DNA from: Isoetes taiwanensis
Lineage: Eukaryota > Streptophyta > Lycopodiopsida > Isoetales > Isoetaceae
Length of the DNA stretch: 64,000 nt
Reading direction: 5' to 3'
NCBI GenBank assembly: GCA_021234155.1
Contig: JAJEKV010000012.1
Location: forward strand, 7,115,650 to 7,179,649
The notes below the pieces were generated by a model, which searched no databases, was not told where the DNA came from, and worked only from the letters and a program-made list of their open reading frames with translations. Shown piece after piece: positions 1,707 to 47,615 of this stretch (position 1 is the first letter of the stretch; each line of letters begins with the position of its first letter). The position numbers and the translations under genes are program-made.

Positions 1707-3902
1707 TCTTGTAGAGTATGGTTTCATTAAACTTAACATCTCTGCTAATAATAATTCTTCTTTCCTCTGGAGCATCAATCCTGTAGCCCTTTGACATTTC
1801 ATCATACCCTACTAGGAAACCTTTTATTGCTCTATTGTGGAGTTTTTTTCTTACTTCCTTAGGCACATGAGAGAAAGCCATACATCCAAAAGCCTTCAAA
1901 ATATTCATACCTTGTATTTGTCTTGCTCCACAAGTTTTCAGCTATCTGTCCATTTAGACTAGAGGAAGGTAATCTATTTTGAATATAGAAAGCTGCTCTT
2001 ACTGCTTCTTCCCATAAGAAATTAGGTACGCCAGATTGCTTTAACATAGATCTGACACAGTGTCCAGAATGTACCTATTTTTCCTCTCAGCCACTCCATT
2101 TTGCTGAGGAGTGTGACTGCATGTAATTTACCTTTTTATTCCCTTTTCTCTGCAGTAATTTTTGAATGTATCATTAACAAATTCACCACCACGGTCTGAT
2201 CTCAAGCATTTAACCACTCTTCATGTCATTCTTTCTGCTTCTGCTTCAAAAATCCCGTAGGCCTTGTATGCTTGACTTTTTCGACTAAGGAAGAAACACT
2301 TAGTATACCTAGAATGGTCATCAATAAAGGTAATAAAATATCTTTTCCCATGCATACTTTTAACATTAATAGGTCCACAGAGGTCAGAATGTACCAGTTC
2401 TAGTAGTTCTTCAGCTCTTTCATGTCTTTTTTAAAAAGGTAATCTCGTGCTTTTTCCCACCATGCATCCATAACAAACAAAGTCATTACTTTCTGCTGCA
2501 GTGGTCATGCCTTTTTTAATCATTTCCTTAATATTTTCTATATTAGCATATCCCAATCTCTCATGCCAAAGCTTTAATGTTGGAATCTCCACTGAGTTTA
2601 TACTTCCAGACAAGATTCTGTTATGAAACCCAAATAGATTGCCCACACGTTTTGCAAGGAACTTAATTTTATTATTCTCAAATACTTTGCAACAGTATTT
2701 GTCAAATATAAGTTTGATTCCCATGTCAACCAGTTGGCTTACTGAGATCAGGTTCCTCACAATATTTGGAACTGACAAAACATTATACAAATTAACAATA
2801 TTGCCTTCCAGGTCATATAACTCAAGCATTCCAGATTCTTTAACTTCTTGCAGCTCACCATCACCCATTTTCACAAATGTGGAAGTCCTTTTCTTCCTGT
2901 CCTTGAGAGCATCAGTAGATTTCATTACTGATTTCTCAGCTCCACTATCTATTACAAGCATGTCACTGGTTTTGTTAGCCTTTCCATTTGAAATAGAGCA
3001 TGTAGCAAATTTACATACCTCAACTTCATGATCTTCTTCCTCAGTTCCACCAACTTGTGCTAGATTTACACTGCTAGAACCTTCATTCCTTCTCATGTTG
3101 CTGGTCCTTTTACCATAACCAGCAGCTAAATGCCCAAGACCCTCACAATTAAAGCATCTATTTTCCTTCAACTTTGGACAATTGTTTTTCAAATGGCCAT
3201 ATGAGTTACATCCATAGCATGGTCCTAATTTCCATTTCCCATTTCCCATTCGTCCTTTCTTTTTCCCTGCAAACAACACCCCAGAGTTTTCTTCTTCTCC
3301 TTTTAATATTTTCTGTTGTTCAATTTCAGTTCTTATCATAAGCTCAACCTTTTCTCTATTTCTAGCTACTGTTCTTACCAAGGTAGACAGTTGCTGAAAC
3401 TCAGAAAATGCCCTTGAAAGAGAGAGTACATGAAAGTCTTTTGTAATGGGAACTCCAACAGCCTCAAGATCTGTAACAATGTTGGCATACTTTTGAAAGA
3501 AAACAGTTAGATTATCTTCTTCCTTGAATTTTAATCTTCTTAGCTCCCTGTCAAGTAATTCAATTTGAGATGAATGTTTCACCTCATAGTTCTTTATCAA
3601 AAAATCCCACATCTCCTTGGGTGTTTTATTTTTTATTTTGAACATGATACTGGAACTTAGCTATGTGTTCTTTTTGTGTTTCTTCCACTTGCAACAGCAT
3701 TTTATTGATGCCTCAGTGCATCACTGTCTCTTGAGTTTGCTGCGCTGCTCTCACCTTCTTCAGCACTTTCTCCAATCACCAGATCCCACAGATCTTCAGC
3801 TAGCAACACATCCTTCATTCTTTCCTTCCATGTCTGAAATCCAGCTTCCCTTTGAAATGTCTCAACTCCTTTGAGCAAAGAGGAACCAAATCTAGTTGCC
3901 AT
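1707..3902 (-). pseudogene. Ty1/copia gag-pol fragment (gag, protease, partial integrase)
   Basis: Reading leftward from 3902, the start MATRFGSSLL leads into a UBN2-type copia Gag (KTPKEMWDFL, then a TDLEAVG region). Two CCHC-like knuckles follow (CYGCNSYGHLKNNC, and CFNCEGLGHLAAGYG, which has lost its final Cys). The aspartic protease motif VIDSGAEKS and the integrase zinc region (WHERLGYANIENI, with CYGC) lie in one 404-codon frame, 3645-2431. Integrase core remnants (FITFIDDHSRY, then HTPQQNGVAERKNR) are readable but broken by stops and frameshifts down to about 1707. There the copia sequence stops at the LINE-like tail, so reverse transcriptase, RNase H and the 3' LTR are missing. A stop and a shift near 3700 separate the start from the main frame. 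This is a dead, 3'-truncated element. Confidence 0.9.
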
Positions 3903-3904: not shown

Positions 3905-3917
3905 GGCTCTGATACCA
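3905..3917 (-). promoter_or_regulatory. copia primer-binding site (tRNA-iMet)
   Basis: On the minus strand this reads TGGTATCAGAGCC, the classic plant complement of the initiator-Met tRNA 3' end. It lies one base inside the LTR end at 3919 and just before the Gag start at 3902, which fixes the element's orientation. Confidence 0.9.
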
Positions 3918-4464: not shown

Positions 4465-5361
4465 TAAACTACTTTGGTTCGGTGGTTGGGACTCCAAAAC
4501 TTGGTGGCTATAAATTATTTGTCAAGACACGAGGATCGGCTATTGTATTTTAAACTTAGAACCCTCAAATATTTAAATTTAGGTTACCTTGTATTATTGG
4601 CCTATATTGCAATACATGATGGTCAATGGACTAGCTTATTGGGCCATTAAAATGGCATATTAATGAAGAAGAAGCTTTTTATTGATCATATTAACTTAGC
4701 TTGCAACATGAGCTCTCTCAGTTTATCATCGAGTTAAGGCGAACCCCATTTGCATCAACATTGGAAGTGGTGGCTTTTGGTTCCGGAAGCCATTATGCAT
4801 TAATCCTGGTAATGTGAGTTGCATGTGTGGTATTCTTGTCTTGACGAAGAGATAATATTTATCCCCCTTATAGGTCCAGATGGTTTTCCATGTCAGTACC
4901 TGGAATTAACAGCAAATAACGAAAACTACAAAATAAATAGTATTTTTGCACGATGCAATGTAGAGTTATTAAGTTGTGAAATGTAATTCCCATGTTTCTT
5001 AGTGTAAATGTGTAATCTCATTTCCTTTTGTAGTAATGTTGTGAATATGTTGCGATACAGACATTAATCAACTCCCAACAGCAAGAAAAAGACCTTAGAT
5101 CACCAAATCTGATCCCCATGCTTTGCCAAATATGAGAATGCACATAAACATACTTTTTGATGTGCATTAGATGTTAACTTCATATTTGGACAAGATTTGA
5201 CATGTTACCTTCACATTTAAGCAAAATTTAACATGCTGGAGGGCTTTTTGAACACAAGGTGTGGTGCAGGTGATTCAAAATATAGCTCCCAATTTGTATT
5301 CCAGAATAGTGTAAGAGTGCAAGGCCCTATTCTGGAATAGCATAAGAATGCAGGGGCAATT
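4465..5361 (+). repeat. dispersed repeat R1, copy 1
   Basis: This block matches 32033-32866 over almost its whole length, with scattered substitutions and short indels (for example extra bases around 4660 and 4800-4920). It begins TAAACTACTTTGGTTCGG and has a short inverted repeat near its right end (TTCCAGAATAG ... CTATTCTGGAA). No coding capacity is visible. Here it is flanked exactly by the copia LTR on the left and the gypsy LTR on the right, so both elements appear to have landed at or in the repeat. Confidence 0.85.
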
Positions 5362-6114
5362 TGTAACGTTCCAGTATAATATATGTCCCAAAATACGTAT
5401 ATTATACTGCCACGTCACACGTACATGTCATCATGACAAGTACTAGCGAGATGTAAAGGGTTGCACCTAGGGGGCATCCTCATTGCACCTAGGGGGCAAA
5501 CTCGTATGTTGTGCATGTTTAATAAACATATGCAACCATAAACCCCATGCCAAATGGCAAAACCCCATTTGGCCAATGTTAACCTAACCCTAATGGTTTC
5601 TATATAACGACTTCCCCCTTAAACCCTAAACCCTTCTTCTTTTCACAATTAGGGTTTCCCAGAGCCATTCCGGCCAAGCCAAGACCCTAGTTCGCACTGC
5701 CAGGCTCTGAAAAGCCGTCTTTGCACATCAGATCTTCCAGCATCAGCAGTCTTCAGCAGGATCAAAGGCATGGATGCATTCCGAGGATCTGGAGCAAGTC
5801 AGGCGCCAGGTAAATGGTCATTCTGTTGTGCAAAGCCGTAGAGGCCTTATAGATCCCGAGATCATAAGCTCTAACAAAAGAACCTAACTTTGGATGTTTA
5901 GGTAGGTAGATTAGATGTTATTCTACAATCCAGTTCTTGATGATGATGGTGTTCATTCTATGCTCTCCCGTGTATTGGGAAGTAGAGACCCTAAAAGCCT
6001 CTATAGCAGATGTTCCTAGAATAGCCTCATTAATACCCAATAAATGCGGCCTGTGCACAAATGCCCGCCGGGTTGTAGGTGGAGGGGCTAGACCGGTGGA
6101 ACAAGGGGGGCTTG
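5362..6114 (+). repeat. gypsy 5' LTR, left part
   Basis: This is the left half of a 1.5-kb LTR beginning TGTAACGTTCC. It carries a promoter-like stretch (TATATAA at about 5601) followed by a pyrimidine- and AAACCCTA-rich leader, as expected around an LTR transcription start. It breaks at 6114, where the Gag-only element is inserted, and resumes at 9353. The imperfect five-base flank GCTTG / ACTTG is the likely target-site duplication of the insert. Confidence 0.85.
5600..5607 (+). promoter_or_regulatory. gypsy LTR TATA box
   Basis: The sequence CTATATAA is followed about 30 bases later by a CCCTTAAACCCTAAACCC leader. Its position in the LTR fits the U3/R boundary of the gypsy element. Confidence 0.55.
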
Positions 6115-6875
6115 TGATATGAAGCAGGCTAGGGGGAGTGATCCAAAATAAAATGGCTAAGGCAATTCAAGGGGTGATAATATCTTAATGGTTGACAAGG
6201 GGTTCAAGCAAAAATAAACAACCATGGACAAAAGGGGTCTTTATACAAATGCAACACATGCTAATACATAAAGTAGGGGTCGTGAATAAAAAAAGGTGAA
6301 TACAACAAAAATATTTGGTGAACAGCTATCTTTTACGGCAAAAAGGTCAAAGACCAGAATAGCTGAAGAAATGCCTTTTTCAGAAGAGAAAAGGCCCGAA
6401 CTGGGTTTAAGAGGGGACGTCGGCATCGATTTAGAGATCAGAAGACCCCTGCCTTCAAATCCGATGCCAGCAACCCGGTTTTTAGCCTCTGCCTCCAGAT
6501 TCAACTTGCAAGGGCTGTATACAGATTGGAATCTGTTTTTGAAGCTCCCTGGTTTATAGCAACTGATTTTCTGTGATATTTGGGTCGAATCCCTGATCCT
6601 GTTAGTCTTCTATCTGGGCAGACTCAGGTGTACATCGGTTTATCGGGTGCTTAAGGAAGATAAGCCTTGATCTAATCCTTTACTGTGAACCCCTTTGGAA
6701 TTGGCCTTAGTCTTGGATCCGGTTGGGCGGATAAACTGCTGCTTCATTTCCTTTTGTAGAAATTCTGTATTCTTGCTCATGTGTTGAGCGAATCTATAAG
6801 TTTATTCTAAGTTTCAATCCTTGCCCGTGTTCTTGTTGACGGAATTTTTAAGCTGTAACTCTCTGAGTTGTATCA
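6115..6875 (+). repeat. 5' LTR of the Gag-only element
   Basis: This 761-bp LTR has TGATA/TATCA ends. It contains an 87-codon open frame that is also largely preserved in the 3' LTR, but the frame has no recognisable motif and I do not treat it as coding. It is followed two bases later by the primer-binding site. Confidence 0.92.
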
Positions 6876-6877
6876 AG

Positions 6878-6889
6878 TGGTATCAGAGC
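6878..6889 (+). promoter_or_regulatory. primer-binding site (tRNA-iMet)
   Basis: TGGTATCAGAGC is complementary to the 3' end of initiator-Met tRNA and lies two bases past the 5' LTR. The Gag start codon follows only 23 bases later, so the leader is extremely short. Confidence 0.92.
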
Positions 6890-6912
6890 TTATCGATCCA
6901 TATACCTGATCA

Positions 6913-8139
6913 ATGGCCCAAAACCGTTTCAATATCTCTGATAGTCAGTATCAGCAAGCTTTAGCTAATGCCAGCTACATTGCCTCCCAGATAGCCTTGC
7001 CTACGCCCGCTAATCAGCAGGAATTTGAAAAGCAGATTGAGCAGTTGGCAATTTTGTACCGTTTCTTACCGGATATTCCCCAGCAGCCACCTCTGCCGAA
7101 TGATCCTCCACCTGTAAATCCTCCACCGCCGCCGCCAGCTAATCCCAGTAAGATCAGGAAATGGTTGGAGAAAGTAGATATGCCTACTTTTAAAGGGAAG
7201 AAGATCACGAGGCCAATCAAAGTAGTCAGTTTCTTAAGTCAGTGGGAAAAATTCTTTGATCGAGTGCAAGCAACTGACGTGGAAAAACTGCAAGCTATGG
7301 ATAGCTATTTGAAAGACCAAGCCCAAGCCTGGTGGCAAGGTCGACGAGAGTGTGATCCTAAGATAGACACATGGGAAAAATTCAAGAAAGCATTTGAATC
7401 GCAATACCTTCCTTCTAATTATCAAAGTGAGCTAAGAAGAGCATGGGATCAACTGAAACAGCAAGACAAAGAAACAATTCAGTCTTACACCTCGAAATTT
7501 ACCCATTTGGCCGCTCTAATAAGGAACCTAGATGGGGATGAACTTCTACGAAAATATGTTAGTGGATGTAAGGATGATATATACGCAGAATTGGAGATCC
7601 TAAATCCGAAAGATTTAGATGGGGCTATAAAGATGGCATCTGCAGTAGAAAGGAAGTTGGATCCCAAAACGCGAAAGTTAGATATTTGGGACGAGGGTAC
7701 CTCTGACGAAGAGATTAAGAAGAAAGAGAAGAAAAATGGAAATAAAGATTCTGAAAGACAGTTCAAAAGAAAAAGATACAACGGAAGGTACAACGGAGAG
7801 AACAATGGATCTGAAAGAAGGCAAGAGGAAGTTCACACCTCAAATAAGAAGAATGAACCAAAAAGAGGATGCTTTAGATGCGGAGGAAAGCATTTTATTA
7901 AGAACTGTCCTTTTGGAGAGGGGGGTATTACAAAAGTTGAACCTCCTAAATCCCAGCATACAATTCAGATGCATGCTTTAAAGGCACCTAAGGACGTGGA
8001 GCCAATAGCTGAGACTTCGAAGGCGGGAGAGACTTCAAAGGCGGGAGAGGAGCGAAGAAGAGTAAGCTTCCATGAAGAGGAGCGAGAGAAAGCTGCCGCT
8101 AAGGAGAAGAGATGGCTCCAGATGGGAACTCTAGGATGA
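6913..8139 (+). CDS. retrotransposon Gag polyprotein, intact
   Basis: This is a 408-residue Ty3/gypsy-type Gag. Residues 1-60 are a Gln/Ala-rich N-terminus and residues 66-78 a proline run. About residues 90-230 form a Retrotrans_gag capsid domain (QWEKFFDRVQATDVEKLQAM, then AQAWWQGRR and YTSKFTHLAALI). A Lys/Arg-rich linker leads to a single CCHC-type knuckle, CFRCGGKHFIKNC, near residue 325. The tail has a short duplicated AETSKAG/GETSKAG motif and an acidic-basic end. The frame is open from the first ATG after the primer-binding site with no internal stops, unusual in this otherwise decayed region. It presumably builds the particle that packages the element's own RNA. The enzymes would have to come from another gypsy element. 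Confidence 0.93.
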   Translation: MAQNRFNISDSQYQQALANASYIASQIALPTPANQQEFEKQIEQLAILYRFLPDIPQQPPLPNDPPPVNPPPPPPANPSKIRKWLEKVDMPTFKGKKITRPIKVVSFLSQWEKFFDRVQATDVEKLQAMDSYLKDQAQAWWQGRRECDPKIDTWEKFKKAFESQYLPSNYQSELRRAWDQLKQQDKETIQSYTSKFTHLAALIRNLDGDELLRKYVSGCKDDIYAELEILNPKDLDGAIKMASAVERKLDPKTRKLDIWDEGTSDEEIKKKEKKNGNKDSERQFKRKRYNGRYNGENNGSERRQEEVHTSNKKNEPKRGCFRCGGKHFIKNCPFGEGGITKVEPPKSQHTIQMHALKAPKDVEPIAETSKAGETSKAGEERRRVSFHEEEREKAAAKEKRWLQMGTLG

Positions 8140-8267
8140 ATAACTGGTAACCTCTCTTGGAGAGATTACGGAAGGTTTTGTAAGTGAAATTCTTTATTAG
8201 GTATAAAGCGTAGCTTTTTCAAGGTTGATTTTCTTTATTTGGTATAAGGAATAGATACTTTGAATGT

Positions 8268-8326
8268 GTATACCATGGTAGATTAGTGACTACGATTGCA
8301 ACGTAGCCGGCTTGAACATGGTATAC
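8268..8326 (+). ncRNA. structured stem-loop 1 of Gag-only element
   Basis: The outer stem GTATACCATG/CATGGTATAC (8268-8277 with 8317-8326) is a perfect 10-bp pairing. It encloses an inner stem CTACG/CGTAG (8290-8294 with 8302-8306) closed by the 7-base loop ATTGCAA. The joining segments GATTAGT and GGCTTGA are shared with the next two units, while both stems differ in sequence yet still pair. Being in the transcribed part of the element, it is presumably an RNA structure. Confidence 0.75.
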
Positions 8327-8336
8327 TAGTTGTAAA

Positions 8337-8392
8337 TGCCTCTTGAAGATTAGTGGTTGTGACTGCAGCACAATCGGCTTGACAAGAGAGCA
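8337..8392 (+). ncRNA. structured stem-loop 2 of Gag-only element
   Basis: The outer stem TGCCTCTTG pairs with CAAGAG-A-GCA (8337-8345 with 8383-8392, one bulged A). The inner stem GGTTGTG/CACAATC (8355-8361 with 8369-8375, one G-U pair) closes a 7-base loop ACTGCAG. The conserved GATTAGT and GGCTTGA joiners are present. Confidence 0.72.
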
Positions 8393-8395
8393 TAA

Positions 8396-8458
8396 GATGT
8401 AATTCTTGGAAGATTAGTAATTGTGATTGCAACACAATTGGCTTGACAAATTACATCT
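8396..8458 (+). ncRNA. structured stem-loop 3 of Gag-only element
   Basis: The outer stem AGATGTAAT/ATTACATCT continues, after a small bulge, into TTG/CAA. The inner stem AATTGTG/CACAATT (8419-8425 with 8433-8439) closes the loop ATTGCAA, identical to loop 1. Joiners GATTAGT and GGCTTGA are conserved. Compared with units 1 and 2 both stems have changed on both strands in a way that preserves pairing. Confidence 0.75.
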
Positions 8459-8578
8459 GTACCTTGGAGGTACGAAGGGTATTCAGGTACTTTGGTAGTA
8501 CAAGAATATCCGTAACTATTTCTGAGTTGTGCAGGAATAAAGATATCTCTAGAACCTTGTTGATCGTGGGCGATCAAC
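8459..8578 (+). ncRNA. further hairpins before the purine tract
   Basis: Three more hairpins follow the homologous set. They are GTACC/GGTAC (8459-8473); GGGTATTC/GAATATCC enclosing GTAC-TTTGGTA-GTAC (8477-8511), again with a 7-base inner loop; and GTTGATCG-TGGG-CGATCAAC (8559-8578), ending four bases before the purine tract. Most of the non-coding interior between gag and the 3' LTR is therefore foldable. Confidence 0.6.
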
Positions 8579-8581
8579 CTT

Positions 8582-8595
8582 GAGAAGGGATGGAT
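8582..8595 (+). promoter_or_regulatory. polypurine tract
   Basis: GAGAAGGGATGGAT lies immediately upstream of the 3' LTR start TGATA at 8596, where plus-strand synthesis would be primed. Confidence 0.75.
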
Positions 8596-9352
8596 TGATA
8601 TGAAGCAGGCTAGGGGGAGCGATCCAAAATAAAATGGCTAAGGCAATTCAAGGGGTGATAATATCTTAATGGTTGACAAGGGGTTCAAGCAAAAATAAAC
8701 AACCATGGACAAAAGGGGTCTTTATACAAATGCAACACATGCTAATACATAAAGTAGGGGTCGTGGATAAAAAAAGGTGAATACAACAAAAATATTTGGT
8801 GAACATCTTTTACGGCAAAAAGGTCGAAGACCAGAATAGCTGAAGAAATGCCTTTTTCAGAAGAGAAAAGGCCCGAACTGGGTTTAAAAAGGGACGTCGG
8901 CATCGATTTAGAGATCAGAAGACCCTTGCCTTCAAATCCGACGCCAGCAACCCGGTTTTTAGCCTCTGCCTCCAGATTCAACTTGCAAGGGCTGTATACA
9001 GATCGGAATCTGTTTTTGAAGCTCCCTGGTTTATAGCAACTGATTTTCTGTGATATTTGGGTCGAATCCCTGATCCTGTTAGTCTTCTATCTGGGCAGAC
9101 TCAGGTGTACATCGGTTTATCGGGTGCTTAAGGAAGATAAGCCTTGATCTAATCCTTTACTGTGAACCCCTTTGGAATTGGCCTTAGTCTTGGATCCGGT
9201 TGGGCGGATAAACTGCTGCTTCATTTCCTTTTGTAGAAATTCTGTATTCTTGCTCATGTGTTGAGCGAATCTATAAGTTTATTCTAAGTTTTAATCCTTT
9301 CCTGTGTTCTTGTTGACGGAAGTTTTAAGTTGTAACTCTCTGAGTTGTATCA
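8596..9352 (+). repeat. 3' LTR of the Gag-only element
   Basis: This 757-bp copy of the 5' LTR has the same TGATA/TATCA ends. Relative to 6115-6875 it lacks four bases near 8804 and has scattered transitions. It is followed by ACTTG, matching the GCTTG before the 5' LTR at four of five positions. Confidence 0.92.
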
Positions 9353-10103
9353 ACTTGTCCCATCACTGATTGATCCCTCTGGTGTGTAAAGCCTACCAGG
9401 GATCTTAGTGAGCTAGGCTTAATGGTTTGCCACTGCGTGTGGGCAAGGCATGAGCTCGACATCTCTGGGGTGATGTGTCGCCTTCCATGAGGTTCAAGTC
9501 GAATAAGGGCAGTGGCCCTCTAGCCACCTGTGATGGGCATGGATGCCTCTGGAGGGGAGGTGACTCTCCTCCTGCCTCATCGGGACTGGGGAGATGCAAC
9601 CCAGCAGTAGCCCTCTTGGCTATGTACCCGACAGGCTACGGTCCGGTCCCAATACTTGTCAACCTACTCTGCAAAGTGTGCACAGGAGGGGCGGATGGAG
9701 TGGACTACCCAACAGCCATGTTCTTATGCCAGCCCAATCCATTGCCATGACTCGGTCTGCATTGACTTCTGGAGACCCAAGCCGTCAGTCGATCCCCTAT
9801 TCTGAGCCCTGGGTAGGATCTCCCCATGTTGATGCTATTTGATGTTGTTGTACATGTGATGTTATGATGTGTTCACCCTTCGAGGTGAACTTATTGATGT
9901 ATTGATGCATGTGCTCATGTTTATTCACGCTTCCGCGGCTAGGACGGTCCCGAAGGAAGACGGGCAAATGACCCATCCACTCTTCCCTCACTGGCCCAGT
10001 TCATGGGATTGGTGTCAGGTGCCTTGCTAGTTGGGCTATCAGGGGGATGAACTCCGCCTTCGAATACGATGGGAGCATCGTAGACGAAGTAGGGGACGTT
10101 ACA
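9353..10103 (+). repeat. gypsy 5' LTR, right part
   Basis: This is the continuation of the split gypsy LTR, ending GGGGACGTTACA, which mirrors the TGTAACGT start at 5362. With the left part it gives an LTR of about 1.5 kb. The primer-binding site follows after one base. Confidence 0.85.
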
Positions 10104-10104: not shown

Positions 10105-10116
10105 TGGTATCAGAGC
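10105..10116 (+). promoter_or_regulatory. gypsy primer-binding site (tRNA-iMet)
   Basis: TGGTATCAGAGC lies directly after the LTR end at 10103. It proves that 9353-10103 is the end of an LTR and that the element reads to the right. Confidence 0.9.
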
Positions 10117-10291: not shown

Positions 10292-10347
10292 GTTAGTAAG
10301 AAATTTTTAGCAAAACCCTAGAAATTATGGCCAAAAAGGTGTGACCC

Positions 10348-10410
10348 CTCACAGAGTGCGCCCAGGACCAATCCGAGATTTTTGGATTTGCCTCTCACGC
10401 ACTGTGTGAG
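10348..10410 (+). repeat. hairpin repeat HP1
   Basis: An outer imperfect stem CTCACAGAGTGCG / CGCACTGTGTGAG encloses an inner AATCC/GGATT stem around GAGATTTTT. It is the first of five dispersed copies in this module. Confidence 0.85.
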
Positions 10411-10560
10411 TGGTGGACCCATGTTGACCTAGATAGATGCATAATTAGTGTAATCTGATAGTGCAGGGCAGCTTAATCTTTAGATTTGAGCTAGATTTGT
10501 ATGTTACAACACTAAGAAACACCTTGGAAATTGAAAATAGAGTAAAAAAGGGATGAACCT

Positions 10561-10622
10561 TCACAGAGTGCGCCCAAGGCCAATCCGAGATTCTTGGATT
10601 AGCCTCTCGCGCACTGTGTGAG
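10561..10622 (+). repeat. hairpin repeat HP2
   Basis: This copy has the same outer and inner stems as HP1, with a C in the inner loop. It lies about 110 bp upstream of the TATA box of gene A. Confidence 0.85.
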
Positions 10623-10734
10623 TGGTGGGCACTTTTTGCGCAAACAAACCTAATGTATTGATCCTATAAACACTAATACCTTGCGGGATTGTACAACATG
10701 AATTTGTAGGTCCAAACCTTAAAACCCCCAGACC

Positions 10735-10742
10735 TATAAATA
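10735..10742 (+). promoter_or_regulatory. TATA box of gene A
   Basis: TATAAATA is preceded by CAAACCTTAAAA and followed by a CTCATTTACAC leader. The same arrangement recurs at 12713 in front of gene B, so the two promoters look duplicated. The ATG of gene A is about 105 bp downstream. Confidence 0.65.
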
Positions 10743-10846
10743 GACCTTTAGGGTTCCTCATTTACACTTTCCTTCTCCAGTTAGCTGCTCGTCGTTCAAG
10801 AAGGCGATTTTTAGGCGCCAGGAAGGCGATTAGACCAATTCAAAAC

Positions 10847-11923
10847 ATGGCCCGCACCAAACAAGCTACTCGAATAGTAGTGCGAGACGACTTCATCAGC
10901 GCCCAAGAGCGGGCTGCCCAACAGAAGGCAAGACAGGTTCAGAAGTGAGCCAGGCAAGAGCAAGATCCAGATGCAAATCCTGATGCCCAAGAGGATGATC
11001 AGGAGCATCATGAGGAGGAGGAGCGCGCCCAACACACGGAGGAGCAGGAGAACCCTGAGGGCCAGGTGATGGAAGGCAGAATGTGGAGGAGCGGGACGAG
11101 GAGATGACAGAGGAAATGGTGGAGAGACTCAAGGAGATGGAGAAGAAGGGGAAGGAGAAGAGAGAATTTAAAGGAAGAGAAAGGAAGAGAAGCTGGAGTG
11201 CAAGAGGAGAAAAGAGGAGTGCAAGAAGCAGAGAGAGGAGAACAAGAAGCGGAGAGAGGAGAAAGGAAAGGACCCGGAGCTACCGAAGAAACCCCGGTGA
11301 AAGACTAAAACAACACCGGCCAAAGGTTGTGATAGCGGAGCGGGAGCCCGATAGACCACCCTCATCCTCTGACACTGAGTCAAATGAAGAGACAAGGGTC
11401 TCGGGACCTTCAAACGCAGCTGTCGAAGTGGAGGAATTGACAGGAGCAGCACCACCCTACCCCAAATGGCCCAAGCCCAAGGCAGATGACAAGAAGGGCA
11501 AGCCAGCAAGGGAGTCATATGTACTCAAGCACGAGCAGGAATATAGGAAAAAGCTCAAGGAGTACAACCAATACATGAAAATGTATGCGGAGTACTCCAA
11601 ATACTACGAGGAGCACAAGGCCGCCCCCAGAAAGACCAGCACCCCCGAAGAAGCCAATGAAGAGAAAAGTTGATTCTTACTTCGCGAGAGCTGCTTGGGA
11701 GATCTGCCACTTTCAGAGGAGCTACGGGCTGTTGATCCCACGAGCCGCCGTCGCGAGACTCACCCGCAAAATTTTGCAGGAGTTCGACAACTCAAAGAGA
11801 GTAACAGATGATATGTTACTCGCACTACAAGAGGCAGTAGAACAGAGGATAGTTCAGCATTTTGAAGACTCTTTAGCATGTGCCCTCCATGCAAAAAGAG
11901 TAACTTGTATGCCTAAGGGCTAG
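10847..11923 (+). pseudogene. gene A: histone H3-like fusion (ARTK tail, charged insert, H3 fold)
   Basis: The ATG begins MARTKQAT, matching the start of histone H3 (MARTKQT). A stop (TGA, plausibly from CGA) falls 34 codons in. A shift near 11070 leads to a 197-codon frame (11083-11673) rich in Glu, Lys and Arg, with an RS/RE-like stretch and an acidic SSSDTESNEE segment. After a second shift near 11600 the first frame resumes with KKPMKRK, an alpha-N-like region, alpha-1 (LLIPRAAVARLTRKILQEF) and alpha-2, ending CALHAKRVTCMPKG at the stop. From ALQEA to MPK, 21 of 34 residues match canonical H3 by eye. Helix alpha-3 is missing. Loop 1 has the length of ordinary H3, not the longer loop of CENH3. 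The gene sits between the gypsy primer-binding site and its gag-pol, behind its own TATA box. Function is unknown; nucleosome or chromatin mimicry is an inference. Confidence 0.82.
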
Positions 11924-12086
11924 GTTCATTAGAAAGGAAGATTTGTAAATACAGACTTTTTGTAAATACAAAATTAAGTTTTGAACATGTTAATGTGCAA
12001 AATCATAAGTAATTAGGTTGTACTAATGGTATCTACATTTGAAATTACCAAATTTGGGGCAAAACTCAGTGTTTTTGGCCCTACCC

Positions 12087-12149
12087 CTCACAGAGTGCGC
12101 CAGGACCTAATCCGAGATTTTTGGATTAGCCTCTCGCGCACTGTGTGAG
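12087..12149 (+). repeat. hairpin repeat HP3
   Basis: This copy has the same two-tier hairpin as HP1. It is followed immediately by the perfect palindrome AGTGGTCGACCACT. Confidence 0.87.
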
Positions 12150-12291
12150 TGGTCGACCACTGATCTTTGCCAATACTTGGCCAAATATAGAAAGTAAGGG
12201 CACAATCCGACTTAACTCATGGAGATAAGTAGGATTTGACCCTTAGATTGTAGAAATTGAGTCATCCTAGACCCAAACAGAGCCCCACCCC

Positions 12292-12354
12292 TCACAGAGT
12301 GCGCCAAGACCCAATCCGAGATTTTTGGATTAGCCTCTCGCGCACTGTGTGAGT
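12292..12354 (+). repeat. hairpin repeat HP4
   Basis: This is the fourth copy, again followed by the AGTGGTCGACCACT palindrome. Confidence 0.87.
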
Positions 12355-12494
12355 GGTCGACCACTGATCCATGCCAAGACTTGACCAAATGAAGAAAGTA
12401 AGAGCATTGTCCGGCCTAACTCGTCGAGATAAGCAGGATTTGACCCTTAGTTTGCATGTTTTGAGTCATCCTCGATCCAAATAGGGCCCCACCC

Positions 12495-12556
12495 CTCACA
12501 GAGTGCGGCAGGACCCAATCCGAGATTTTCGGATTAGCCTCTCGCGCACTGTGTGA
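12495..12556 (+). repeat. hairpin repeat HP5
   Basis: In this fifth copy the inner stem is extended to AATCCG/CGGATT by a T-to-C change that turns a G-U pair into G-C. It lies about 160 bp upstream of the TATA box of gene B. Confidence 0.85.
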
Positions 12557-12712
12557 AACTTGCCCCAACTTTCTCCAAATTAGATGAAATTTGTTGCAAT
12601 AGGATCCTTAGAAAGCACTCTTTAACCTAGTTTTGCTTATGAATTGCATAGCAACACCTTAGAATCATAGATATTCCCAAACCTTAAAATTTCCCAAAAT
12701 TAGGGTTTAGTC

Positions 12713-12720
12713 TATAAATA
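12713..12720 (+). promoter_or_regulatory. TATA box of gene B
   Basis: TATAAATA is preceded by CAAACCTTAAAA and a TTAGGGTTTAG block and followed by CTCATTTGCACC. The arrangement parallels the promoter of gene A. Confidence 0.65.
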
Positions 12721-12831
12721 GGACCACAACCCTCATTTGCACCCTACTCATTTGCTCCTCACTCCAAGGCAATTTTTCAACTTCTAAAGGCGCTTCCCCA
12801 TCTGTTTGACATCCCCAACTGCTCTAGTATC

Positions 12832-14326
12832 ATGGCAACATCCGCATTCAGGCGATGGTACAGCGCCACAGCGACATCAACTCAGTCTTCGCCGTCTTTC
12901 AGAAGGAGATTGATGTGGATGCAACCATCAATGCCACCCCCTATTACCAGGACATCATGACCGAATTCCATGCCAAGATAGGACCTTCTCTAGTAGAACT
13001 CCCATCTTGCATAGGATATTTTGCTCCAAGCATAGCCATTTCGTACAGCTCTGCAAGACATCCCTAAGATAGACAAGTACTTAGAAAACAAGGCTAGCCG
13101 CTTGCCTAATTATATGTCAGTATCTGTAAATAGAAGGAGATATTTCTCATACACCGCAGCTGTAGCTATTTTCCTATCCCATAGAGCCCAAACCCAGATA
13201 GGGGAACCATCTGTCCAACCCCTAGACATTGAGCCTATGGCCATGGCAGCAGGAGAAGAAGAGCAGATGCTCCTGGACTATGAAGGGAAGAGCAGGAGGA
13301 AGATGAAGGGCATTGACGTCGACCCGGCACAAGAAAGGCAGCAAGCAGAGCAGGAACTCCAGAGCTTTGAAGAAGGACTGAGAACCACGCGGACAGCTCC
13401 ATCACTTGGGCTAGGCATCACAAGCATAACCCCAGTAATCATCCAAGGAGAGTAGGCGCACTGAAGCCCGCAGACGACATCAAGAACCTTCCAGAGTGCG
13501 GTGGACAAAATAGATAGACGAGCTCCTACATCTCCTACGTCAACAACCGGACCTCGATGACTTCATCGACCGGGAGACACAGGACTTCCCCATCAGCATA
13601 AGGGAGGCCCAGACGTACACTGGCCAAACATCGACGGACATAGAAGCCTACACCGGCATCAGGCAGATGATGGCTCAGCAGGAGTTGCCCACAGAGGAGG
13701 AGTTCATGGAAATCCAGGAGCGGATGGGAATCAGAGGGAAATCAACGACTGCGTTCCTACCCAGCACCTCGGCATCAGCACCAGCACCAGCCGAAGGCAG
13801 CATTAGCTTAGTATCTTCCATGTTCAGCGACTACAGGGAAATGGTAGAAGTACCGGTCGATGAATACTCTGGAAGACACAGGGCTACAATAAGATCTGGC
13901 GAGGAGGCAGGGGAGGCAGGGCATGACAAAGCCCTCAGGTTCTATCTACCTTTGCTTAGAGATGGAAGGATAGCGGTTATACACTGCCAATTCAGCCCAC
14001 ATGGGGAAGAAAGAGTTTTCATGCTTATTGCCCTCTCGGGATTCAGAAGACATGCTCGCACGGCCCCAAACATCGATCATGTCATCCTTGTCAAGAGGAC
14101 AATAGCTCTAAGCATCTTCGACTTCGCGGTCCCTTATAGTCGACAGGGCAGGTTGGCAGTCACCGCAGCCTATACATCAGACAGAAGAATTGAAGACTTG
14201 GTGACCGCACTCCAAGGAGGCACAGCCACCAATATCCTGAGGAACTTAGGGCGAACGGTCGGCACAGCCCAAGTGAAGAAATTCTTGGAGGACAACCCAG
14301 ATTATATCAGAAGACTCCAAGAATAA
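12832..14326 (+). pseudogene. gene B: unrecognised protein, frameshifted
   Basis: I do not recognise this protein. From an ATG about 110 bp after the TATA box the coding signal passes through several frames. One segment includes INSVFAVFQKEIDVDATI; a second (13102-13455) includes NRRRYFSYTAAVAIFLSHRA and an acidic, Gln-rich linker. The third (13667-14326, 219 residues) has KALRFYLPLLRDGRIAVIH and SIFDFAVPYSRQGRLAVTAA and ends in KKFLEDNPDYIRRLQE. The last segment looks like a compact beta-rich domain. No cysteine motif, membrane span or catalytic signature is visible. The repeated promoter and hairpin arrangement shared with gene A suggests the two genes form a unit. At least two frameshifts would be needed for a single protein. 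Confidence 0.55.
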
Positions 14327-14527
14327 AAACTTAAAATTTTCAATTTTCTATATCTATTTTTGAATGTAAAAATCTTATATCTTATAAATATAAATGATGA
14401 TATTGATCATGTTCTCTTGATATATTTTGTCCCCACAATTATATCACAAAACAAACGAATGCAATAACAAAACAATGAACTAATCATCAGAGTGCAATCT
14501 AATGTGTATGTAGCTAGAGTACCTAGA
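14327..14527 (+). other. AT-rich 3' flank of gene B
   Basis: This AT-rich stretch (several TATA- and AAAT-rich tracts, with AATAAAAAC at the gene B stop) separates gene B from the resumed gypsy gag. The junction back to gypsy sequence is near 14500. A CTAGAAATG here resembles TAGAAAAATG at about 10277 and could be a decayed target-site duplication. Confidence 0.4.
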
Positions 14528-15337
14528 AATGTCGAAGAACAAGGACAGCATGAGCAAGAGCATACACCGGCAAGGCAATTCCAGCCCAGGAACCTGTACT
14601 AAGAGTTCGCGGCACCAACCTCAGAAGAAGAGATATCACAGATAAGGTCGGACATCCACGAAATAAGAGCCTTGCTGGCAGGAGCGGCACCAATAGGACC
14701 AGACCAGAATGTCCAACTACCTGAGACACCAGCTGGCAGAGCAGTCAAGACAAAGAAGAGAAACCAAAGAAGGAGATCATCAAGCTCGGATTCATCCAAT
14801 TCTAGTTCCGACTCCGACTCCGAGTCTGATGAGCAGGAGAACGAGCGACAGGACCGCCGGGAGGGTCCCAACCATGATAGGGGCAGAATGGAAGCTGACT
14901 ATCAGAAGAAAGTTGACTCGGCACTGAGCAATGTGTGGAAAGCCAGGAAGTTAGAGCAGTTCTCAGGGGATAACAGGTCTGGAATGGAAGCCGAGGCATG
15001 GTTAGATGAAATGAGGGAGTATGGAAATACTTATAGCATGAAGGATAAGGACACGGGCAGAGTAGCAACAGCCAACCTTAAGGAAGCAGCCAGGATTTGG
15101 TGGAAAGGCTATGCCAAAAGCCATGGGTTAAGCAGAGATAGTTGCAGGTTCAAGAAGTTTGCCAAAGCATTTAAGCGCCATTATATGCCAAGGGAACACA
15201 AGTGTCACATGATGCAACAGTTTTACAGGTTGCAGCAGGGCAACAAGACAGTCCAGAAGTACACCGAAGAGTTCATGAGGCTGAGGCTATATGTGCCGAA
15301 ATTGAGTGAAAGACATGCAATGGAGGGGTACAATTGA
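14528..15337 (+). pseudogene. gypsy gag, capsid part
   Basis: An open frame (from about 14528, one TAA at 14600, then continuous) gives an N-terminal EISQIRSDIHEIRALLA helix. A Ser/Asp-rich segment follows, then a Retrotrans_gag capsid domain (LEQFSGDNRSGMEAEAWLDEM, AARIWWKGYAK, TVQKYTEEFMRLRLYVPKL). The frame shifts at about 15320 into the next segment. The upstream start is lost or lies at 10229. Confidence 0.88.
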
Positions 15338-16307
15338 AGGCTTGAATGAAGAGATCAGGAAGCTAGTGAGAGCAATAAACCCCATGATAGTATCAGAAGC
15401 AGAGTCCAAGGCAGTGAGCTTACAAGGAACAGGACCTCAAGAGAGTGGGCAGAGGCATCAATACTATCAGGACAAGGAGAAGGCTACAGGAAGCTACAGC
15501 CCAAGAGCAACAAGCCCAGCAGCTAGCAGACCTCAGTACAATGCGAATTCCGGGAAGCAAGGCAACGAAAATTTTGGCAAGCAGGATAAGAAACAGGTCA
15601 GCTTCAAGGAGCATGGAGGTTCAAACTACTCCAAGGCAGTAAAGCAGTTCTTACAGTCCATCCCCAAGGAGAAGAGGCAAGAATGTATTGAAAAGCAGTT
15701 GTGCTTCAGGTGCTTCCAGCCAGGACATCGGACACATAATTGCCCATTTGTGATGAACGCGGCATTAGCAGAGCTAGGGTGGGAGACACCCACGGAAATC
15801 GACGAAGAAGATGCGCCCGACTACATCCAGGGTGAGTGCCACATCTTTGCTGCTATTGACTTCGAGAATGCTGAGAGTCAGTACCAAGTCATTTCGATGA
15901 TTGGGAAGGCCCAAGCCAAATCCTTCATAGTGTTGATAGACACAGGGAGTACCCACAATTTTGCCTCGCCAAGGATGGTAGAAATGTTGAAGCTGAAGCC
16001 TTTGAAGTCCAAGTCTAGACCGGTTGTGTTAGCAAGTGGGGCAATCCGTCATATGGCAGGGAAGAGGATCAATTTCGACATTGACTTGCCAGGTATCAAT
16101 GTTGGAATGGGAGCAGAAGTGATGAACATTGGCAAGTACGACTTGATCATAGGCATGGAATACCTTGGACCGGCTGGAGCCGTGATTGATTGTGGGAAGC
16201 GGAGAGTAATCTTAACAACGCCAGAGGGCAAGGTCATTGAGATAACAGGTAAAGAAGTCACCCCAATCATGCAATGCATGTCTAGTAAGAAGTTACTTAG
16301 ATCCTGA
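15306..16307 (+). pseudogene. gypsy gag C-terminus and aspartic protease
   Basis: This frame continues gag with a Gln/Ser-rich linker and the CCHC knuckle CFRCFQPGHRTHNC. The retroviral-type protease follows, with active site LIDTGSTHNF and the downstream DLIIGMEYLG motif typical of gypsy proteases. It ends at a stop after a short linker. The next ~80 bp still encode spacer-like [10 protein letters not shown] in another frame. Confidence 0.9.
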
Positions 16308-16326
16308 AGGAAGGAGCAAGTGGCCT

Positions 16327-17430
16327 ATGTCTTTAAACTCGAAGTTGACGAGCAAGAGACAGCGGAAGAGAAAGAGGCCAAAGCATTTCGTGAAGAAGAA
16401 GGATGAAAGTCTTAGAATGTGCATTGACTATCGTCAATTGAACAAGCACACCATCAAGAACAAATATGCTCTACCTCGATCAGATGATTTGATGGATCAA
16501 CTGCAGGGGGTAAAGGTCTTCTCCAAGATAGATTTGACGTCAGGTTATCACCAGATCAGAATCAAGGAAGAAGACATCCATAAGTCTGCATTCCGGACGA
16601 GATATGGCCATTATGAGTTCACAGTGATGCCGTTTGGATTGTCCAATGCTCCAGCAACCTTCATGAGGCTCATGAATGATGTTTTCTGCGAGTTCCTAGA
16701 TGCTTTCATCATAGTTTTCCTTGATGACATTCTAGTCTATAGCAAATCCTTAGAGGAGCATGCCCAACACTTGAGGAAGGTACTTGAGAAGTTGAGGAGG
16801 CATCAGCTTTTTGCGAAGCTATCCAAGTGTCACTTCGCAACAGAAAGAGTGGAGTACTTAGGGCATGTGATCTCGGCGGAAGGGATCTCCACCGACCCTG
16901 CAAAGATTGAAGCGGTAACTGATTGGCCGGCACCAAAGAACACACATGAAGTGAGGAGCTTCCTCGGCCTAGCAGGGTATTACAGGAAGTTCGTCAAGAA
17001 CTTTGCAAAGGTGGCAGCTCCATTGACGGACCTCACCAAAGCAGGAAAGATAAAAGATTGGGCAAGTCATTGGCAAAAGAAGGCCCATGCAGCATTTGAG
17101 ACGTTGAAGGAAGCTTTAACGACCGCGCCAGTCTTAGTCTTGCCAGATCCAGCCAAGGATAAGCTTGTAGCAACAGACGCAAGCAGGATAGCAACAGGTG
17201 CAGTGCTCATGCAGGAGGAAAGAGTAGTCCCATACGACTCCAAGAAGATGAATGATGCGGAGCAGCGATACCCAACTCATGACCAAGAGCTCTTGGCCAT
17301 TGTAAGAGCATTGCGAATCTGGAGACACTATTTGTTGGGAAGGAAGTTCCAACTAGACACAGATCACCAAAGTCTCCAATATATTTTCACACAACCATTC
17401 CTAAATTTGAGGCAAAGGAGGTGGATGTAA
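16327..17430 (+). pseudogene. gypsy reverse transcriptase and RNase H
   Basis: RT motifs run from [20 protein letters not shown] through [24 protein letters not shown], the catalytic FLDDILVYS (YVDD-box equivalent) and [11 protein letters not shown]. They are followed by the RT connection ([11 protein letters not shown]) and RNase H ([35 protein letters not shown]). The usual RT start before FVKKKD is missing; a deletion joins protease spacer to mid-RT at about 16385. A TAA at 17428-17430 interrupts WM-FLKEYDFEI, where the family normally has Glu. Confidence 0.93.
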
Positions 17431-18053
17431 TTTCTCAAAGAGTATGACTTCGAGATAGTCTACAAGCCAGGCAAGCTGAACGTAGTCGCAGATGCGCTCT
17501 CCAGAAAGCCATTGACGACAAGGACGCATTGCAATGCCATATCGACACTCACAAGTGAGTATGGCAAAAGAATTGAGGAAACGTTGCCATCCGACGGCGA
17601 CTTTAAAGAAGTGTGGATTAGCCTCTCCAAAGAGGCAAGACCAGATAAAGAAAGGGAGGCCTTCAAGAACTATAAAAAGGAAGGAAACCTCCTATACCAT
17701 AAGAACAAGTTATATGTACCAGAATCTTCGGGAGTAAGAAAATTAATTCTACATGATACACACAATAGCTCCATAGCTGGTCATGCAGGGTTCATGAAGA
17801 CATATTTCAAGATCAGAAGTAGCTACTTCTGGCTCGGCATGAAGAAGCAGATAGCAAGTTATATTCGGGAGTGCCAGTTATGCCAGCAAATAAAAGCAGA
17901 GCAACTCCGAATTCCAGGAGCTTTGGAGCCATTGCCGGTGCCGAACGCTAAGTGGGAGGTCATAAGTATGGATTTCATTACAGGGCTCCCAAGAACAGCA
18001 AGAGGCAAGAATGCCCTGATGGTGGAGGTGGATAAGTTGTCGAAGATGGCACA
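17431..18053 (+). pseudogene. gypsy integrase, N-terminal half
   Basis: After the stop, RNase H finishes (GKLNVVADALSRK) and integrase begins. The HHCC zinc module is HDTHNSSIAGHAGF with CQLCQQIKAE. The first catalytic aspartate lies in ISMDFITGLP. The sequence then breaks off at KLSKMAH, where the family continues with the rest of the catalytic core. Unrelated AT-rich DNA follows, so the element was truncated here by recombination or deletion. Confidence 0.92.
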
Positions 18054-21000
18054 CCGTCTTGTAAGCAAATTATCTTGCCTTGAAATTAATCTGCTTATCT
18101 TTTCTAGAATCTTTCAACATGAACTTGGACTTGGGGGATTCTGATACGAAAAAGCTATTTTATTGTCAATAAAATTCGTTTCACTTTGGATGTAGGCTTT
18201 TGCTCTTCTAGACCAGCAGTATCTGATATTTTGACATTGCAACCACAAATACTTTTCTGTAAGGTCTAAGCTGTTGGGCAACTCAACAATTTCTTCTTGC
18301 GGCACTGATGGCATGATGTTCGGTGCTCTGAAAATGCCCAATGTATGGAGGCCATGCGGAATAACATGGTGGAATAATATAGTGGGATAACATAGTGGCC
18401 TATATAAATGCATGGGCTTTATGTCTGCCTGGAACAAATGCAGTTACAAGCCTGAGACACACGAAAGATCCAAGGCGAAGTGGAAAATTCCAGAGGACAC
18501 TAGCAATAAATACTTTCTTGAGGTTTGTATCTTCTTGTAGATTAGTTATGCATTAGTGCACTATGAGGAAACTAACAGTCAAAGAAATAACTATGTACTT
18601 TTATGTTGTGTTTATAGTAACAAAGGACCTATTGGTATGGCACACAGCCTTAAAATTACTTAGCTCCCATCATTTCTGAATGCCAGTTGTTTTTTTTTTC
18701 CTGAATGCGAGTTATATACAGAATGATGCGATTCTTCTTGTTATCCCAAGCCTCATTTCTGTCCAGGTCAATAGCAATATGTATAATTTGACTGTAATGA
18801 CCCATTTTAAGTCTACTTATGCTGTCTGGTAGGGATATTTCAAGCATGCGCGCCTTTAGTCTATGGTGTAGATTGCTATTTTTTTGTTTGCAATGGTGGA
18901 AGCACATCTTTGGCACTCTGTTTGAGAGTTTTAAGATGAGCTCTCAAGAACATCTCTCTCAAACTAGCATGCTGAACCAATAAATCGAGTATAGTCCTGT
19001 TCTTTAATTATGCAATCCATTTTGTAATGAGCATGAGACAGAATCGTCTTTAAACTAATCTAGGATAAGCAGGAACCCATTCAGCATGAGGATATCCAGG
19101 AGGTGACACTCATAACTATTAGTTACCATATTCTTTGACATGTCATCTTTATGCCCTTTGATACATCACCCTTCCTGCACTTTTATGCGTTTCACTTGTA
19201 TACTAACTTTGACCACTGCTTTGTATCTAGGTGTCTACAAATTTGGCAAATGCAAATCAAATGACACTTTAGCCTTGAGGTTAGTTAAAAGCTGAAGTTA
19301 TATTAGTCCAATTTTGAAAAAAATATTAAAATTTGTATAGCACAACTTTTTTGGACTTTAGTGCTTTGGGCATGAAGCCTTGGGCACGAAAATACCATTT
19401 GGGAGAAACCCAATGAAATTGTCTAGCAAATTGGTTGTTGGATCAGTAAAGAGCATCTTCGTGAGAATCAAAAGGACTACAAGCTATATAGTTCCATCAA
19501 AATAGGTCTTCACGAGCAGAACATTCAATTTGTTGAGGCAGTGGACAAAGACTTAGTATTGATAGAATATGATAAAGCAAAAGCATTAAGTAGACAAGCT
19601 CTTAGGTATTTGTTAGCCTTGGAACTTGCCCTTCTATACATTTTTACATATGGCAAGATGTGCTTTAGCATTGCAGAATAGTCGTGGAATCCAAAATGCA
19701 TCCCAATCAAGAACAAACAACAATATTTTATCATCATCCCCTTTTTTCTTGCTTTGGTAAGTGCCTATACCTTCGTTTTGAATATTTATCTTGCCACCTA
19801 ACTTCTTCAACTTGGTCTTAACGATTACAACTAACCTTATGCGCTCATTAAACACTCTTAGACTTTAATTCATTTGGCAGAAGCCAACCAAGGTTCTATG
19901 GTAGGACATTGATCTTTTTATTTCTCCAATTTCTGTGCTCTAAATGCTTCCTAATTGTTATTTGTAGAGCGATATAAAAACATGGTTAACGGAATCAGAG
20001 ATGCTTCTAAATCGTTGTCTTTTTTTAAGAGAGAATTTTCATACTCGGACTAGTTATTTCTAATAAAGAAATGACTCATTTTTTACCATCAATCTGACTA
20101 TGTCATACCACAGGTCAAAGGAGAAGCATGCTAAATGCCTTGACTATCTTGTTGCAATTTCGGAGTATAGCTTGTGTTGCTGAGAACTGAAGCATTTTCA
20201 AAAAACTGAAGCATTTGCAGAGAGGAAGATGTAGATCTTGATTGCCATATACACACTACAAGCAATGACCAAGGTTGTCCATGTTTATCCATCTAAATGG
20301 CAGGGACAGTCTTCACCAACTTTGCTGCTTCATGCAAGTACCGTGTTTGTGCAATGTGGTCCACTTAACATGTATAATGATCCTATATTTTTAAAATCCT
20401 ATGTTTCTTATTCATATGCATAAAGTAATCATGCCCTTCTTGCAACTTGCAAGAGTAGAGATATGGAGTTTACCATGTTTTGCAGTCCATGCTCATATCT
20501 AAGCTACCTTTCTAATATGATAGATCAAGGGCTGAGCTGTCAAAGATGTGCTTACCAAAAGATGATATAATACAAGCGAGATCTTTCAAAACTTAGATCC
20601 TTCAAGCTAGAACACAATTAGACAACTCCGACTTCAATGACGCTACAATTAGAAAGAAAAGTAGGAACACCGAAATTCACATTGTCTTAGCTTCATCCTT
20701 AATCTGGGCCTTCAAAGCAGATCTCATTTGACTTTTTTACCATTGTATATGAATGTTCCGGACATATCCCACAATCACACCCTCCAGCCCTAGGGTTTGC
20801 TCTTTGGACAGCCCAAAAATCTTTAATTTACAACTTTGAACCATATTACATAGCATTAGCAGCATTATCATTTCCTTAAAATACTATTGAACTCTATAGT
20901 TTATACAACTCAAAAATCAATATGTCATACACATACTCTTTAAGTTTCAACAGTTCCAAATTGTTAGAAATAGAAAGGTGCGAATGTTCTACCTCAACAA

Positions 21001-21812: not shown

Positions 21813-22333
21813 GTCTAAGGTTAAATTTTCTATTACATGCCATGGGATAACCTAAGATTTTGTAAGGTTTTGGGATGTATTCGTCGGCCAAATTGTTATA
21901 ATGCTGACGTCAGTAAATGGGTTTTGGGATTGCAGTGGTCGATTGGGTTAGGTCTGAAACTTGTGATTTTTAGAGGGGCAGTGGTGTCGATGGCTTCGCG
22001 TTCGCGTGGAGCGGATGGAGCAGAGCAGAGGCAGTTCCGGCCACAGCTTTGGAGTCCGTCGGTATGTCCTGTGGGAGTATCAGGTAAGTCTGCTGTTGGT
22101 TCTTGGCGATGTCGTGTGGGAGTGCCGGGTATTTATGTGCTGTGTACGGGCTGTTCTTGCCAAAGCTTTTGAAGTCGCCTTCATCCTTGCTCTGGTTATA
22201 CCTGCGTCTTGTGCTTGTGGTGTTGCTGCTGCAGTGGATGTTTTCTTTCGGCTGTGCCATTCTGCAGGTCTGATTCCCTTTCAAGGGCTATAGCCCCAGC
22301 AACAGTCTGGGTCTTCAAAAAATCCACAAGTTT

Positions 22334-32032: not shown

Positions 32033-32866
32033 TAAACTACTTTGGTTCGGTGGTTGGGACTCCAAAACCTAGGCGGCTATAAATTATTTGTCAAGGCACG
32101 AGGATTGGCTATTGTATTTTATTGTAAACTTATCATTTATGTTAATATAACCTGGCATTAGAACCCTCAAATATTTAAATTTAGGTTACCTTGTATTATT
32201 GGCCTATATTGCAATACATGATGGTCAATTGACTAGCTTATTGGGCCATTAAAATGGAAGAAGAAGCTTTCTATTGATCATATTAACTTAGCTTGCAAGA
32301 AAGTTTTTAAAAAGCTCTCACAACATGAGCTCTCTTAGTTTATCATCGAGTTAAGGCGAACCCCATTTGCATCAACATTGGAAGTGGTGGCTTTTGGTTT
32401 CGGAAGCCATCAGATGGTTTTCCATGTCAGTACCTGGAATAAACAGTATTTTTGCATGATGCAACGTAGAGTTATAAAGTTGTGAAATGTAATTCCCATG
32501 TTTCTTAGTGTAAATGTGTAATCTCATTTCCTTTTGTAGTAATGTTGTGAATATGTTGTGACACAGACATTAATCAACCCCCAACAGCAAGAAAAAGACC
32601 TTAGATCACCAAATCTGATCCCCATGCTTTGTCAGATATGAGAATGCACATAAACATACTTTTTGATGTGCATTAGCTATTAACTTCATATTTGAACAAG
32701 ATTTGACATGTTACCTTCATATTTAAGCAAGATTTGACATGCTGGAGAGCTTTTTGAACACAAGGTGTGGCGCATGTGATTCAAAATATAGCTCCCAATT
32801 TGTATTCCAGAATAGTGTAAGAATGCAAGGACCTATTCTGGAATAGTATAAAAATGCCCGGGCAAC
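32033..32866 (+). repeat. dispersed repeat R1, copy 2
   Basis: This copy matches 4465-5361 and is not interrupted by LTR elements. It lacks about 100 bp of copy 1 (around 4800-4900) and adds short insertions. It retains the TTCCAGAATAG/CTATTCTGGAA inverted repeat near its right end. Confidence 0.87.
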
Positions 32867-36177: not shown

Positions 36178-36223
36178 AATTCAATACTATTTATCTGCTA
36201 GTCGGCTCTTCATATACCTTAAT

Positions 36224-47545: not shown

Positions 47546-47615
47546 TGGCAAGGAGTATAGAAAATGATGCGCGCCATCTTTTAAGAGAGCTTGATTCACG
47601 CTTGATAATCGAGCC

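Follow-up and report, generated by a model that had tools for sequence, protein, structure and literature searches.

A gene of the histone H3 family lies in sense orientation between the primer-binding site (PBS) and the gag gene of a Ty3/gypsy LTR retrotransposon in the window, that is, the whole 64-kb stretch of DNA analysed here. It codes for an N-terminus (MARTKQ) and a core that are both of H3 type, and the element copy that bears it is dead. The capture of H3 by transposons and the gain of genes by Ty3/gypsy elements are each already known; new to the literature searched is the combination, an H3-family gene that occupies the place of an accessory gene in a dead Ty3/gypsy element and shows signs of having its own promoter. 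We regard it as an even call that the window holds the remains of a Ty3/gypsy LTR retrotransposon, old and no longer active, into which the H3-family gene had been taken up as an accessory gene. That the element carried the H3-like gene is probable in our judgement, and a chromatin-targeting role of the encoded protein is conceivable, if somewhat doubtful.

Layout of the retrotransposon and position of the gene

The element is read on the plus strand in the order 5' LTR, PBS, H3-like gene, ORF2, gag, protease, reverse transcriptase, RNase H and integrase. Its 5' LTR spans 5362-10103 and is split by a nested gag-only element into a left part (5362..6114), which starts with TGTAACGT, and a right part (9358..10103), which ends with ACGTTACA and adjoins the PBS. 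These 8-bp ends, the first at 5362 and the second ending at 10103, are inverted with respect to each other and belong to the TG/CA type. The PBS, TGGTATCAGAGC (10105..10116, plus strand), stands one base past the LTR end at 10103, and we take it to be of the initiator-Met tRNA type. Three matches to it with at most one mismatch were found in the window against 0.33 expected, the one at 10105 being exact.

The coding domains follow the gag, protease-RT-RNase H-integrase order of the Ty3/gypsy elements (Metaviridae), all of them on the plus strand. The capsid part of gag (14603..15337) matched PF03732 with E=6e-14 in 14603-15334, which together with the PBS at 10105 places the H3-like gene between PBS and gag, where the original prediction had put it. 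It is followed by the gag zinc knuckle and aspartic protease (15306..16307; PF08284, E=3e-10), the zinc knuckle match itself being weak (zf-CCHC_3, E=0.01, below its cut-off), by the reverse transcriptase and RNase H (16246..17430; PF00078, E=3e-39, with PF17919 and PF17917), and by an integrase broken off in its catalytic core (17431..18060; PF17921, E=1e-18; break point placed by eye). The place behind the integrase at which chromoviruses have their chromodomain lies past this break. In the ten stretches of 10847-18141 scanned with Pfam no hAT domains were found, and the coding domains that surround the gene are those of Ty3/gypsy. Self-comparison of the 64-kb window (E<=1e-8) yielded no second LTR copy that could represent the 3' LTR; because the 3' part is missing from the window, the limits of the element are drawn without an LTR pair or a target-site duplication.

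The nested gag-only LTR element (6115..9352, plus strand) sits inside the 5' LTR and is not part of the H3 element. It has LTRs at 6115-6875 and 8596-9352, which are identical in 744 of 762 alignment columns, a PBS at 6878 and a gag ORF at 6910-8139 (PF03732, E=4e-17), and its target-site flanks, GCTTG and ACTTG, agree in four of five bases. This insertion is younger than the LTR that it splits.

Five copies of a 106-nt hairpin repeat, all on the plus strand and with a mean column identity of 84%, flank the H3-like gene. Two of them lie before it (10321..10426 and 10533..10638), the first beginning 205 bases past the PBS, and three lie between it and ORF2 (12060..12165, 12264..12369 and 12468..12573). 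The 70-nt core of each copy folds better than 200 of 200 shuffles of its own sequence, with z scores of -5.5, -7.7, -8.5, -7.0 and -3.9, respectively. None of the 28 pairs checked for covariation displayed a compensatory change, strong folding being all that is shown, and Rfam gave no match at gathering scores.

Each group of hairpins is followed by a TATA box, TATAAATA, and then by an ORF. For the box at 10735..10742 (plus strand) the next ATG is 10847, that of the H3-like gene, and for the box at 12713..12720 (plus strand) it is 12832, where ORF2 starts. The sequences surrounding these boxes (10660-10818 and 12603-12793) aligned with a score of 83, whereas 300 shuffles averaged 40 (sd 6) and reached 63 at most. 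The word TATAAATA alone proves little because the window contains it eight times (six on the plus and two on the minus strand), one occurrence being at 14383 in the AT-rich stretch before gag. The arrangement suggests that the H3-like gene and ORF2 are preceded by two related internal promoters, and with such related modules, hairpins and then TATAAATA, before both of them the H3-like gene may have had a transcript of its own. A pair of related internal promoters would be unusual for an LTR element. The hairpin repeats may just as well have served to package the genomic RNA.

ORF2 (12832..14326, plus strand) is broken into three pieces (12828-13067, 13036-13455 and 13514-14326), for which we obtained no Pfam match; two pieces compared with NCBIfam and one compared with the PDB (best E 0.78) gave no match either. 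In Ogre elements, too, the long internal region carries additional ORFs, the extra ORF standing before gag, and ORF2 would fit this pattern. The Ogre primer-binding site differs from that of the H3 element, and to our knowledge no histone occurs in Ogre elements.

Reading frames and histone match of the H3-like gene

The H3-like gene starts with an ATG at 10847 and ends with a stop codon whose last base is 11923, in agreement with the span first proposed, and 10847-11920 amounts to exactly 358 codons. The predicted MARTKQAT start was found at 10847, at the first ATG past the TATA box and in the same frame as the C-terminal piece, giving the gene the (M)ARTKQ N-terminus typical of H3. Three plus-strand pieces can be distinguished: an N-terminal piece beginning MARTKQAT (10847..10945), which ends at an in-frame stop after 33 codons; a charged middle piece of 204 codons with 47% E/D/K/R (11059..11673), which is in another frame; and a C-terminal piece (11579..11923), which returns to the frame of the first and covers alpha-N, alpha-1, alpha-2 and loop 2 of H3. 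This pattern of frames fits the one stop and two frameshifts that had been proposed. In the GC-rich tandem array at 55500-64000 (period about 1.11 kb) homopolymer length varies between copies, which makes sequencing error a possible source of additional frameshifts in the window.

Residues encoded by 11579-11920 matched the Pfam family PF00125 (Histone) with E=1.3e-17, passing the cut-off, so that the histone assignment, which the original prediction had made dependent on a significant match, holds at the level of sequence. Compared with the PDB, the C-terminal ORF matched 174 distinct sequences at E<=0.01 (best E=2.3e-14), and all 60 matches listed of these 174 bear the H3 name, making H3 the nearest class within the family. 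Because of these E-values, a chance ORF is excluded as an explanation of the histone piece. The proposed collinearity with H3 is borne out by an alignment of 76 residues, from AAWEI to MPK, that runs without gaps through 11690-11917 and has 37 identities to Arabidopsis H3.3. From ALQEA to MPK the 21 matches counted in the original prediction are right, and the length over which they fall is 32 residues instead of 34.

An AlphaFold model of the C-terminal piece, of low confidence (pLDDT 62), has helices at 33-49, 55-69 and 77-109, a predicted arrangement that follows the helix order of H3 with alpha-3 absent. Foldseek with this model gave no histone among the 50 matches listed of 83 (E<=10), and none at E<=0.001. 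A stand-alone H3-like control protein, P0004 (pLDDT 53), had no histone in its 10 matches either, and because the control missed too, the miss on the H3-like gene carries no weight.

The encoded protein ends after MPKG, just past loop 2 and ahead of histone helix alpha-3, leaving the three-helix fold incomplete. Downstream, the best score for an out-of-frame remnant of alpha-3 was equalled at 1394 of 20000 random places, and no significant remnant was found.

Accessory gene and competing explanations

We favour an acquired accessory gene because of several observations taken together: the histone match, the frame shared by both ends of the gene and the MARTKQAT at the first ATG past TATAAATA; the location of all element parts on one strand and in element order; the hairpins on both sides of the H3-like gene and the related promoter regions of this gene and ORF2; the damage by stops or shifts to the H3-like gene, ORF2 and gag-pol alike, next to a 76-codon core with neither stop nor gap; and the precedent of genes gained by plant Ty3/gypsy elements, for which the available part of PMC9289625 describes an AlkB-type ORF in orchids. 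Against this reading stand the single copy, the missing 3' part, the lack of alpha-3, substitutions no more conservative than under neutral decay, the absence of a listed Foldseek histone and of database relatives, and a TATAAATA word that is not rare.

The strongest competitor, which we hold to be rather unlikely, is that a host H3-family transcript or gene was picked up without acquiring a function and has been decaying since, as in the hAT elements of Pseudocercospora. To describe decay of this kind, canonical H3.3 was decayed neutrally by substitutions only to the same identity in 5000 runs. The observed BLOSUM sum was 158 against 151.5 simulated (sd 11.9) and was equalled in 1525 of 5000 runs, the observed positives were 46 against 46.8 simulated and were equalled in 3443, and 542 of the 5000 neutral runs were free of stops. 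No conservative-substitution signal was found in the core relative to neutral decay from H3.3, which is what a functionless copy would give, as are the stop, the changes of frame and the missing alpha-3; the available part of PMC6710886 supplies the precedent, with inactivated hAT copies. However, the 76-codon core has neither a stop nor an insertion or deletion relative to H3 despite change at 39 of 76 residues, which would be unlikely under free drift (a judgement that goes beyond a simulation of substitutions). The TATA promoter region related to that of ORF2, and a long charged N-terminal extension foreign to an ordinary H3 gene, also argue against a mere passenger. The lack of gaps in the core hints at constraint on the coding sequence, possibly older than the capture.

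Overlapping with these explanations is the question of source, namely whether the gene derives from plant CENH3 instead of canonical H3 and might direct the element to centromeres, which we consider unlikely. In a tree built from 16 sequences (ten reference sequences, among them all those of H3 and CENH3, five from the protein-database search, and the H3-like gene) the gene clustered with the CENH3s of three plants at a support of 85/82, and a forced grouping with four canonical H3s was disfavoured (p-AU 0.034, uncorrected for the four tests made). The alignment shows the CENH3-like residues P63, A65 and T85, and a long variable N-terminal tail following MARTK is also found in CENH3. However, the branch is very long (2.27), the support falls short of decisive, and three other placements were not rejected: with P0001 (p-AU 0.316), with P0003/P0004 (0.321) and with CENP-A/Cse4/Cnp1 (0.174). 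P63 and A65 are not exclusive, being present in P0003 and P0004 too, two proteins whose identity as CENH3 is not established. Loop 1 has the length of H3, without gaps relative to H3.3 and one to two residues below the three plant CENH3s, so the longer loop 1 by which plant CENH3 differs from canonical H3 is absent; MPK is likewise an H3-like feature. The single-sequence scores of the nematode protein P0001 (57.5 bits) and H3.3 (56.9 bits) exceed that of rice CENH3 (54.1 bits). Plant CENH3 also begins with ARTK, and for this reason the ARTK start alone does not point to H3K4 readers. Compared with plant CENH3 and canonical H3, the gene has in common with both the MARTK start and the alpha-N to alpha-2 core; it differs in having at least about 270 residues before the fold, in the absence of alpha-3 from this copy and in being carried by a mobile element.

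Quite improbable, in our view, is a juxtaposition: a gene or pseudogene of the host, comprising the H3-like gene alone or ORF2 as well, would happen to sit amid the remains of two different broken elements, no retrotransposon ever having carried it. Such an origin would fit the presence in the window of several elements that are nested or adjacent, the failure to find a 3' LTR or a second copy, and the long distance of about 4.5 kb from PBS to gag ORF; yet all parts keep a single order and strand, the hairpins and promoter region are common to the H3 and ORF2 modules, and the first hairpin starts 205 bases past the PBS. A plain processed H3 pseudogene without promoter was rejected, the TATA module and the charged extension arguing against it.

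Known systems, possible role and neighbouring features

Given the single copy in the window, relatives were sought elsewhere. The full-length protein had no relative among 73 protein-database candidates and the charged insert none among 310, and a third search (17 candidates) gave five matches, all stand-alone histone proteins of 164-192 residues. The search relied on short exact words, and the 17 candidates listed include no ordinary plant H3. No other copy of the element was found in the viral contigs or prokaryote genome contigs scanned, collections from which records near the window may have been omitted. With an exact-word search and viral and prokaryotic collections, these negatives are weak evidence of absence.

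The literature searched (titles and the starts of abstracts) yielded no case of a histone gene in an LTR retrotransposon, in agreement with the original prediction. The closest case is the capture of H3 by hAT DNA transposons in Pseudocercospora fijiensis and relatives and in Pyrenophora tritici-repentis, some copies of which are inactivated, as described in the available portion of PMC6710886. Both cases have an H3 coding sequence inside a transposable element. The fungal carrier, however, is a class II element with an H3 copy of approximately normal length (PMC6710886, same portion), whereas here we find an LTR retrotransposon whose H3-like gene has a core with 37 of 76 identities to H3.3, is extended by a long charged stretch at the N-terminus and is preceded by its own TATA box.

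On the side of the carrier, a Ty3/gypsy element of the orchid Phalaenopsis has an ORF of the AlkB-type 2-ODD class, so that both are plant Ty3/gypsy elements with an additional host-like ORF (PMC9289625, in the part available). That element is represented by many consensus sequences and its enzyme is active in vitro according to the same part of the paper, whereas the present case has a different domain and a single broken copy known from sequence. The screen of 121 angiosperm genomes reported there found 15 extra domains in LTR elements, and no histone is among the nine that the available part names (PMC9289625). The word histone does not occur in the main text of a review of giant transposons, as far as that text was available (PMC6431247).

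Under the reading of an acquired accessory gene, an internal promoter belonging to the H3-like gene would have driven its expression as a protein in its own right, about 358 codons in length, which suggests that the element may once have made its own histone-like protein. Nuclear entry of this protein might have relied on H3 chaperones or on pairing with H4, and its long charged tail could have brought element proteins or cDNA to chromatin; alternatively, the tail may have served to weaken chromatin-based silencing directed at the element. Chromoviruses read histone marks by means of a chromodomain, and a histone-making element would be the converse of this strategy, writing or imitating chromatin. 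A wider proposal, that a Ty3/gypsy lineage uses an internal promoter to make a CENH3- or H3-like protein of its own and thereby marks or finds chromatin (for example, centromeric or bound by H3K4 readers) for integration or escape from silencing, strikes us as very unlikely. If open, constrained copies exist, they would provide a natural experiment on the entry of mobile elements into the nucleosome and histone-chaperone system, and a test of the takeover of centromeric histone genes by retrotransposons.

The window contains further features around the H3 element. A Copia-type gag-pol fragment lies on the minus strand at 2431-3660, with a PBS at 3906-3917, and the repeats at 4932-5359 and 32438-32865, which are 94% identical, may be the LTR of this fragment and a second copy. 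The ORF at 22274-23260 matched a Replitron HUH endonuclease (PF21859, E=3e-8) and is overlapped on the opposite strand by a 262-codon ORF. The region 35487-45176 is bounded by two direct repeats of 370 bp, identical to each other and 9.3 kb apart, and within it a 152-bp repeat containing TATAAATA occurs at 36837 and 41609 and a minus-strand ORF without Pfam match at 42201-43061; this region is possibly another unusual LTR element. Finally, a match to the B3 DNA-binding domain, one of the features that speak for a plant host, lies at 47595-48014 (PF02362, E=5e-9).
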